A stretch of 64,000 nucleotides of DNA from assembly GCF_032884065.1 (NCBI RefSeq), contig NC_088865.1, positions 42,975,152-43,039,151 of the forward strand. Reading direction: 5' to 3'. The position numbers and the translations under genes are program-made. Each line of letters opens with the position of its first letter. The first letter of the stretch is position 1. The notes below the pieces were generated by a model. The model searched no databases and was not told the DNA's origin. It worked only from the letters and a program-made list of their open reading frames with translations. Origin of the DNA: Artemia franciscana. Its lineage: Eukaryota; Arthropoda; Branchiopoda; Anostraca; Artemiidae. This document shows positions 14,452 through 60,704 of the stretch, piece by piece.

Positions 14452-14509
14452 ATGAATTTGACATTATTGCTTAACCTACTCAATGTTCTCGGAATTGTAC
14501 TGTTAAGAG
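14452..14509 (+). CDS. Gene A exon 1 (signal peptide)
   Basis: Nineteen codons plus one base, ATG at 14452, donor GTATGT at 14510. The product is almost entirely Leu, Ile, Val and Asn after Met, as expected for a signal-peptide core. It is exactly as long (58 nt) as exon 1 of gene B. It lies in the second unit of a ~665-bp tandem duplication; the first unit has a broken counterpart. Confidence 0.68.
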
Positions 14510-59100: not shown

Positions 59101-60704
59101 CCACACTCTTTGTATTATGCTTTTATAATTATTGTTTTTGTTTTCAATTTTGAATTTTATGTAAATTTTAGTCTGGTTATACTTATCAGCTAGAATATTT
59201 CCCCCATCAATCCCCATCATACACGTAAGAATCTCTGTTCGTTTTTAAGTTTTAATGTTGCTCCTTGTTATCAGTTAAAAATACCTGTTTTTTATTTCTG
59301 ATCATTTTCTTAATAATGCCAGGAAACCTGGCTACATCTCTGCGGAAAAATCCCTTTTCCCCACGATTTTATTCTCTAGACAAAACAATCCTGGTGAAAA
59401 TTTACCCCGGACAATTACCCTTAATATCTCCACGCGGAAGATTGGGTCGGTAAAGAAAAAACAAGACATACGACGAATTTTGTACAAGAATTTTGTCAAA
59501 TTTTCCCACTGTAAAATTTCCCGTGAAAAATTCATCCCTGGGAAATTTCCTTCCCCATGGAAAATCCCCCAGCAGAAAATTTGTCCCCCACACGAAAAAT
59601 TTATGCATACTTCCAAACAAAAATTACTATAATAAACAACGGGTAAATTTTATAACTTTCTAAGACGTTTCTCCAGGAGCTATGGGGGATCAGGTTATTT
59701 CCAAAGGTATTTTTATTCGGCTTTTTCAACTATGCTGAACGTAATGGCTATCTTAAATTTTTATCAGATGATTTTGAGAAAAAAGGGCTTGGGAGGGGGC
59801 CTAGTTGCCCTCTAATCTTCTTGGTAAGATAAATAGGGAACAAGAAATTTGAATTTCCAGTCGAATGAATGCTCTCCCAATTTTCAGGACAACTGAGTCG
59901 ATACGAACGCCCCCGGGGAAAAAATTATATAAACACGCATCCGTGATCTTTCTTCTGGCATAAAAGAAAAATACGAAATTTTTGCAGATTGGAGCTTTAA
60001 AGTTCTACAGCACTTTTCCCCAGATACACTGAATCTGACGATGTAAGTTTAATTAAGTTTCCGTAAACGCTAGGGGTTTTTGTCCCCTTTTTCAAAATCA
60101 GGCAAGTTTCCTCAGGCTTTTAGCTTTTGTTAAGTAACACTAGGCTTAATGAATTTTATATGTTAGGAATTAACACAATAAGTCGATTCTTTTAATATAT
60201 CTATTGATACCAAAATTCCGTTTTTTAGAGTTTCGGCTGCTATTGAGTCACATCGATCCGTAATTACAGTTAGTTACCACGAACTGTCTGAAAAGCAAAT
60301 CCAGTGAGACTATTACGAACAGAACTGAAATTTTATTTGTTTTATATGAACATGGCTGTTCTTTAATTTTACAAATCTCATTTTTTTTTAGGTTTTAAAG
60401 AAGTGGAAAATGAGATGACACTTTTAACAAAAGTCAGTAAGTGGAAAAATGAAAAGCTGAAGGGACAAAATAGACCAAAACATGTCCTAGAGCCACCACC
60501 TATGTATGCTTTTGAAAAACTAGGGCTTCCAGTTTCTGATGGTGATATCAAGAGGAATAATTCCAAAACCAAATTTAAGTCTAATTTTTCTGAGAGCTAT
60601 CCAGAAAAAGGAAATAATGAAAAAGGTCGTTTACAAAATGGTGTCAGTTCTCACAAGTTTAATGGAATCAAAGATGAGTCCAAAAAATCAATGGACAAAT
60701 TGAG
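50042..60704 (+). CDS. Gene C: third member of the array, partial (last exon not found)
   Basis: Join 50042-50111 and 60392-60704, continuing to the right. Exon 1 encodes [20 protein letters not shown] plus VST, a signal peptide with an initial basic region, and ends in phase 1 at GTATGT. Exon 2 starts after a T-run and AG, completes a Gly codon (G|GT) and codes for 103 further residues, very rich in Lys, Asn, Glu and Ser (low-complexity, probably disordered), closing in phase 2 at a GTAGGA donor. Same phases and order as A and B, so I assign it to the family although exon 2 sequence is not alignable. I could not find a DDRxxEGQ-type exon between 60705 and 64000; intron 2 has been enlarged by two (TA)n arrays and a SINE, so exon 3 probably lies beyond the window, or the gene is broken. 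Confidence 0.6.
50224..50513. repeat. Two (TA)n arrays in gene C intron 1
   Basis: 50224-50281 and 50420-50513, separated by 138 bp. Confidence 0.95.
50935..51115. repeat. Purine-only tract (GGGAAGGGAAAA)n
   Basis: About 180 bp almost entirely of A and G on the + strand (AAGGGAAGGGAAACTAAAAG, GGGAAAAGGGAAGAGAAAGA). Such polypurine stretches can form triplex DNA. Confidence 0.8.
51368..51494. repeat. (TA)n in gene C intron 1
   Basis: 127 bp of TA with a TTTATATTTA interruption. Confidence 0.95.
51495..52087. other. Gene C intron 1 segment, nothing recognised
   Basis: AT-rich sequence without gene or repeat landmarks. Confidence 0.45.
52088..52579. mobile_element. MITE-like element, 492 bp
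   Basis: Ends are inverted: CAAGGCCGTATCCAGG at 52088 and CTGGATACAGCCTTG ending at 52579, each followed inward by a G/C-rich stretch (GGGGGTAGGG; CTCCCTTT). No open frame. No clear target-site duplication, so the superfamily is open. Confidence 0.68.
53030..53165 (+). repeat. Decayed LIR-arm fragment
   Basis: GATTGGAGGGTAAGCAGCCC, ATCATTTTCTGAACATATCC, CATTTTGTTCAGCATAGTAG and CAACTGTGTCTCTAGGGAT parallel the middle of the right arm. Confidence 0.55.
53505..53580. repeat. Short tandem repeat AGGTACCATATAAA
   Basis: AGGTACCATATAA recurs three to four times within 75 bp, with GGTATAAAGGTA variants. Confidence 0.75.
53660..54125. repeat. Interspersed repeat R2, inverted pair, in gene C intron 1
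   Basis: 53660-53925 is a forward copy (AAGAAAAGTTAAGAGCTCCA, ACCATCAATAAATATATAAA, AAGCAAACAGAAATTACG). 53935-54125 holds the reverse of its second half (GGTTATCAGTCCTACTCATT.., TTGAGTTTGAATCGG against CCGATTCAAACTC). Together they form a palindrome of about 450 bp. Confidence 0.6.
54388..55070 (+). repeat. Dispersed direct repeat of 74 bp
   Basis: AAAAAAGGTATGATTCAGAA through GAAGGAG.ATGATACATCCTTG occurs at about 54388-54461 and 54992-55065, with only about four differences. Confidence 0.88.
55794..57170 (+). mobile_element. 5'-truncated LINE with open reverse transcriptase frame (RTE-like)
   Basis: Homology starts abruptly at about 55794 ([19 protein letters not shown]) inside the reverse transcriptase, so endonuclease and 5' part are missing. 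After the stop at 57152 there is only a short (TAG)n-type tail (TTAGTAGTAGTAGTAGTA), as in RTE-clade elements that end in a short repetitive tail. The insertion lies in gene C intron 1. Confidence 0.86.
55898..57154 (+). CDS. LINE reverse transcriptase, C-terminal 418 aa
   Basis: A non-LTR reverse transcriptase lacking its N-terminus. Visible motifs: [20 protein letters not shown] (motif 1/2 region), [13 protein letters not shown] (motif A, first catalytic Asp), [20 protein letters not shown] (motif B), [10 protein letters not shown] (motif C, the two catalytic Asp of YADD), FSYLGSIIS (motif D/E), then the C-terminal region [30 protein letters not shown] and LNRLGWRR found in RTE-like proteins. 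The in-frame sequence continues 5' of this ATG to about 55794, so the ATG is not a natural start. The core is uninterrupted, which points to a young insertion, but without endonuclease and 5' end it cannot move on its own. Confidence 0.88.
   Translation: MILFRLRHTVDKVLREEQCGFRKGRGCVDHVFTLRLIIEKSLRCQTPLVLSFIDYEQAFDSVDRKTLTKVLSLYGISEKYIKVICAMYENNTAAVKVGNEVSNWFCIKSGVKQGCALSPFIWIILMDFVLTSIGKAIGDHGIKWGGRTLLDLDYADDLSILDESVSKMNEFLEVLRVQGAKIGLKINVKKTKSLRLGISEDEQVTLGNEKIDQVGSFSYLGSIISKDGGSSEDVKSRIAKAQGVFSQLKKVWKNRKISLQTKIRILEATVMTVVKYGSEAWALRKADENLLDVFQRNCQRIVLGTRLTDRISNSRLYEKCGSIPLSGAIMKERLRWLGHVLQMKDDRLPKIFLFGQPSGATRKAGRPCLGWVDVINKDLKEMGTSWEGVKREALNRLGWRRSVRSCVGLRRLGAAMSY
57171..57867. other. Gene C intron 1 segment, nothing recognised
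   Basis: AT-rich, short frames only. Confidence 0.45.
57868..60290. mobile_element. Long inverted-repeat element 3 (LIR-3), ~2.4 kb, in gene C intron 1
   Basis: Left terminus ATCAAACAGTTCATGGTAAC at 57868; right terminus CAGTTAGTTACCACGAACTG at about 60266-60285. One foldback unit at about 58760-59060 (TTTTTTCAACTGACAGTAAG..; TTTAGCGTAAAGAACG..), and another half-unit at about 59225-59290. Arms share CCTTTTTAAGTGATC, TTCTGGCATAAAA / CACGGATG and GCTGAA(T)CTGA blocks. The most diverged of the three complete elements. Confidence 0.68.
60392..60704 (+). CDS. Gene C exon 2 (Lys/Asn-rich)
   Basis: 313 nt, 21 nt (seven codons) longer than exon 2 of A and B, with the same entry and exit phases. 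Acceptor is nine T then AG. Begins FKEVENEM and ends SKKSMDKL before GTAGGA. Exon 2 starts 101 bp after the end of a long inverted-repeat element. Confidence 0.66.

Follow-up and report, generated by a model that had tools for sequence, protein, structure and literature searches.

Judged by its sequence, a 168-kb region of the Artemia franciscana genome (measured between the exon 3s of p1 and C) carries a cluster of six or more paralogs that share a conserved last exon and lie in the order p1(-), p2(-), p3(+), A(+), B(+), C(+). Genes A, B and C, which except for exon 3 of C lie in the analyzed stretch of 64,000 nucleotides (hereafter the window), combine a leader exon, a variable basic exon 2 and a conserved exon 3 (Table 1); this three-exon structure was observed for A, B and C only. 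The initial annotation had described these three as a head-to-tail array. The paralogy of A, B and C and their common plus-strand orientation were borne out, but the array is not complete within the window, as exon 3 of C lies 3.7 kb past its end, and the cluster as a whole is not purely head to tail, with two of the six members on the minus strand.

Table 1. Exons of the gene cluster. Positions for genes A, B and C are those of the window unless otherwise indicated; positions for p1, p2 and p3 are those of contig C3.
Feature	Position	Strand	Length (nt)	Description
Gene A exon 1	14452..14509	+	58	Start codon, hydrophobic leader MNLTLLLNLLNVLGIVLLR, donor GTATGT
Gene A exon 2	24415..24706	+	292	Variable basic segment; phases 1 and 2
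Gene A exon 3	25906..26248	+	343 (with stop codon)	Conserved C-terminal module
Gene B exon 1	34572..34629	+	58	Leader MKQTFVTIFMFTIGFSNLN
Gene B exon 2	41092..41383	+	292	Variable basic segment
Gene B exon 3	44110..44455	+	346 (with stop codon)	Conserved module
Gene C exon 1	50042..50111	+	70	Leader of 23 residues
Gene C exon 2	60392..60704	+	313	Variable basic segment
Gene C exon 3	window-equivalent 67695-68136 (C3:43042846-43043287, the window's contig)	+	442	
p1 exon 3	42875779-42875982	-		Whole-genome protein search with A exon 3, E 4.1e-4
p2 exon 3	42922921-42923130	-		Whole-genome protein search with A exon 3, E 5.5e-4; local tblastn with B exon 3, E 2.1e-12
p3 exon 3	42964666-42964890	+		Whole-genome protein search with A exon 3, E 0.0087; local tblastn, E 7.6e-9

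All eight exons that had been placed in the window were found to have GT/AG borders, and each of the three genes has a phase-1 followed by a phase-2 intron. Intron 1 measures 9.9 kb in A, 6.5 kb in B and 10.3 kb in C; intron 2 measures 1.2, 2.7 and 7.0 kb, respectively. The spliced proteins of B (231 aa) and C (274 aa) are identical over their full length to the 'uncharacterized' Artemia franciscana entries LOC136024649 and LOC136025289 at NCBI, and their six exons have thus been modelled independently. We take these records, which carry no family name, to be gene predictions; they represent genes B and C themselves and no separate system, and neither locus is named in the literature searched. 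The idea that the long first introns would hide the genes from prediction did not hold for B and C, both modelled exactly at NCBI, and gene A alone was missing from the protein search results. The predicted A protein has 230 residues and an intact frame, and from their sequence all three genes look real. The first intron of C contains an open frame of 458 aa (55778-57154) encoding a reverse transcriptase (RVT_1, E 6.7e-31), probably part of a LINE-type element.

The extent of the cluster was defined with exon 3. In a whole-genome protein search with A exon 3 as the sole query, nine candidates were scored: six fell in the cluster (E 3.4e-72 to 0.0087), and the other three, located on other chromosomes, had E values of 0.40, 0.55 and 4.6 and were taken as chance matches; with this one query, the genome may still contain more distant paralogues elsewhere. 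A profile of the six exon 3s, built from the same members that it recovers, found the same six with E values from 1.5e-33 to 7.4e-48. We found no seventh member among 6496 open reading frames of at least 20 aa in the 197 kb analyzed locally, the next best having an E value of 0.69. The window and the adjoining stretches, together 183,849 bases, contain no N, an argument against a scaffolding artefact in this stretch, outside which p1 is located. An unrooted tree split A, B and C from p1, p2 and p3 with support of 94/93, just under its mark, and did not settle the order within A, B and C. The members p1, p2 and p3 have in common an inserted stretch with N-Q-T and a cysteine at the end. Flanking pieces of 300-400 bp compared between the A, B and C gene units gave short matches only, with E values of 0.13 or worse.

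Exon 3 is the constrained, conserved part of the proteins. The homology claimed for the A and B copies was confirmed by tblastn within the window (E 1.8e-13, 36% identity over 84 aa) and by shuffling, where the observed score corresponded to z = 24 and none of 400 shuffles scored as high. All six members have a phase-2 acceptor on this exon, and nine columns are invariant among them (D34, R35, E44, G47, I57, K67, M74, K78 and H81 in the numbering of B exon 3). The module comprises about 80 residues, with an aspartate-arginine motif followed by two hydrophobic stretches, of which the first contains the invariant glutamate and the second an invariant lysine and histidine. For p1 and p3, the only pair with usable dS, other pairs being saturated or nearly so, dN/dS over 91 codons was 0.17, and pS exceeded pN in each of the 15 exon-3 pairs.

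Exon 2 is basic, diverges quickly and is probably unstructured. Among A, B and C, exon-2 comparisons gave z values of -0.1, -1.0 and 0.0, with the observed scores reached by 212, 359 and 195 of 400 shuffles. The similarity is thus at the level of shuffled sequence, and the common descent of exon 2 in these genes rests on its place in the gene; replacement of the exon may be an alternative to common descent. Its length, position, phases and basic composition (19-22% K+R) have been kept. We located exon 2 also in p3 (136 nt) and p1 (145 nt), with phases 1 and 2, and the acceptor is in phase 1 in all five known copies (A, B, C, p1 and p3); tblastn with exon 2 of p1 and p3 gave no match at p2. Between p1 and p3, dN/dS for exon 2 was 0.52 (dN 0.456, dS 0.870) over 44 codons. 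The acceptor and the first half of p1 exon 2 are carried by a 219-bp tandem repeat of 4.9 copies (L023, 4275-5350), only the last of which runs on into the full exon with its donor.

From the hydrophobic leaders we infer that the A, B and C proteins are secreted or membrane-anchored. Leader candidates were defined as readings from an ATG to a phase-1 donor with a hydrophobic core, upstream of exon 2, and a leader exon ending in phase 1 was seen before exon 2 in A, B and C. The leader exons called earlier ranked first of five candidates for A and likewise for B. The one called for C came seventh among 13; above it were five nested readings of a single CA repeat and one other candidate, all six with a donor score of 3/6 against its 5/6. 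By eye, the A leader has no clear cleavage site. The same ranking returned 11 candidates for p3, and none was found for p1 in the 4.8 kb scanned.

The initial annotation had recognised no known family, and our searches agree. In Pfam, queried with the six exon 3s and full-length B and C, the best matches were CopD (E 0.058, 14.2 bits against a curated cut-off of 32.1) and one with E 0.093 (11.7 bits against 20.2), both below their cut-offs. The best NCBIfam match of the six exon 3s had an E value of 0.037 and occurred in one of the six members, and exon-3 profiles reached at best E 0.49 (two-member) and 0.84 (six-member) among PDB sequences. Searches of a set of 5.77 billion proteins (146, 4076 and 231 candidates) returned only the two Artemia proteins LOC136024649 and LOC136025289. 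This search needs shared five-residue words and missed B even when B was a row of the query alignment, and its negatives therefore count for little. The proposed lineage specificity, here a restriction of the family to Artemia, is likely, with only Artemia proteins matched by a word-sharing search that is weak for distant relatives. In the available portions of the literature on Artemia orphan, tandem or secreted genes, the family is not named. A viral origin was considered and rejected: a comparison of the six-member exon-3 alignment with viral contigs, using one peptide pattern, gave 34 pattern matches and no relatives.

The explanation that we favor, and hold to be somewhat probable, is that the genes encode small ER-targeted proteins in which a signal peptide is followed by a fast-changing basic linker and then by a conserved C-terminal module, probably of two helices. 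The leader would send the protein into the secretory pathway, exon 2 would serve as a spacer whose sequence matters little, and the exon-3 module would fold as a helical hairpin, its charged residues pairing with each other or binding a partner, and act extracellularly or at the outward-facing side of a membrane. We infer secretion, hairpin and extracellular action alike, the hairpin solely from hydropathy and the invariant residues.

Reproductive proteins often diverge fast and their genes often duplicate locally, and both features of the cluster would fit reproductive or cyst-shell matrix proteins like the secreted Artemia shell-gland protein SGEG2 that have expanded by local duplication. 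This analogy, which is compatible with the favored explanation, we regard as a tentative possibility. In the portion of the SGEG2 report available, the protein of A. parthenogenetica is described as having a leader of 20 residues and a pre-peptide of 255 residues that resembles no known protein (PMC3108945), and the likeness to the cluster, whose proteins are putatively secreted, is one of kind only: both are small Artemia proteins with a leader and no known homologues. According to the same portion, which also describes the injection of dsRNA into females, SGEG2 has a kexin site, RYKR, and is cut in two (PMC3108945), and the two epitope peptides published for it, which come from another Artemia species than ours, have no counterpart in the cluster. 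Identity with SGEG2 itself was rejected: when the 184-kb stretch, with the exons of C included, was scanned in all six frames together with L017 and L023, one peptide matched at 7 of 16 residues at best, outside the exons, and the other at fewer than 7 of 14.

Retention in the membrane was weighed against release using hydropathy. If the second stretch of exon 3 were a transmembrane helix, exon 2 would form a basic stalk outside the cell, with the residues beyond the helix in the cytosol. The 19-residue hydropathy maximum indeed falls in the second stretch in four of the six members, with values of 1.52 (A), 1.68 (B), 1.73 (C) and 1.85 (p2), but the maxima of p1 and p3 are only 1.32 and 1.37 and lie in the first stretch. 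The invariant lysine and histidine of the second stretch also argue against an anchor; in A, B and C the most hydrophobic window includes both, and in p2 the lysine lies just before it. The hydropathy of the second stretch is borderline between the two outcomes, and we consider a membrane anchor unlikely.

A further alternative concerns gene A, which could be a decaying copy, with B, C and some of p1, p2 and p3 in use. The A protein gave no match at E≤10 among 231 word-sharing candidates of the 5.77-billion-protein set, in a search that sees only proteins 0.55-1.75 times the query length and would miss an A model outside that range, whereas the B sequence returned B. The A leader exon moreover lies inside a tandem duplication of about 550 bp, the copies of which (13401-13899, plus strand, and 14067-14616) are 77% identical by blastn alignment; in the upstream one the start codon and the first half of the leader are gone, but a GT after the leader end is preserved. 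Against decay, both long exons of A keep an open frame, correct phases and GT/AG borders even though its exon 3 is only 36% identical to that of B, and the A exon 3 scores as well as that of B against the family profile that includes both (149.5 and 141.7 bits). We find decay of gene A doubtful.

Outside the genes, the window contains a tRNA-like Rfam match of 38.2 bits at 1560-1640 on the minus strand; as ARAGORN calls no tRNA anywhere in the window, this is perhaps a tRNA-derived repeat. Long TA runs, and open frames that appear to resemble the helicase end of Helitrons, occur at 45101-45324, 49142-49357 and elsewhere.

Arthropods commonly have tandem families of secreted proteins that are limited to one lineage, and the cluster is therefore not surprising as a kind. 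A male-specific gene family of Anopheles gambiae, one example of the fast-evolving reproductive protein families of insects, is, going by its description in the available part of the source, likewise a small family of probably secreted, diverging proteins (PMC3199272). A more far-reaching reading, that exon 3 is an undescribed domain and the cluster a constant-plus-variable recognition or attachment system, seems to us very improbable; were it true, the C-terminal module would be kept constant from copy to copy and the basic exon 2 changed past any recognizable likeness, as happens in proteins that face gametes or microbes. Public annotation holds at least two of the members as separate, nameless entries, and these are now joined into one clustered family, to which gene A adds a member without a match in the protein search. 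With exon 3 identified as the constrained part of the proteins, the family offers defined targets in brine shrimp.
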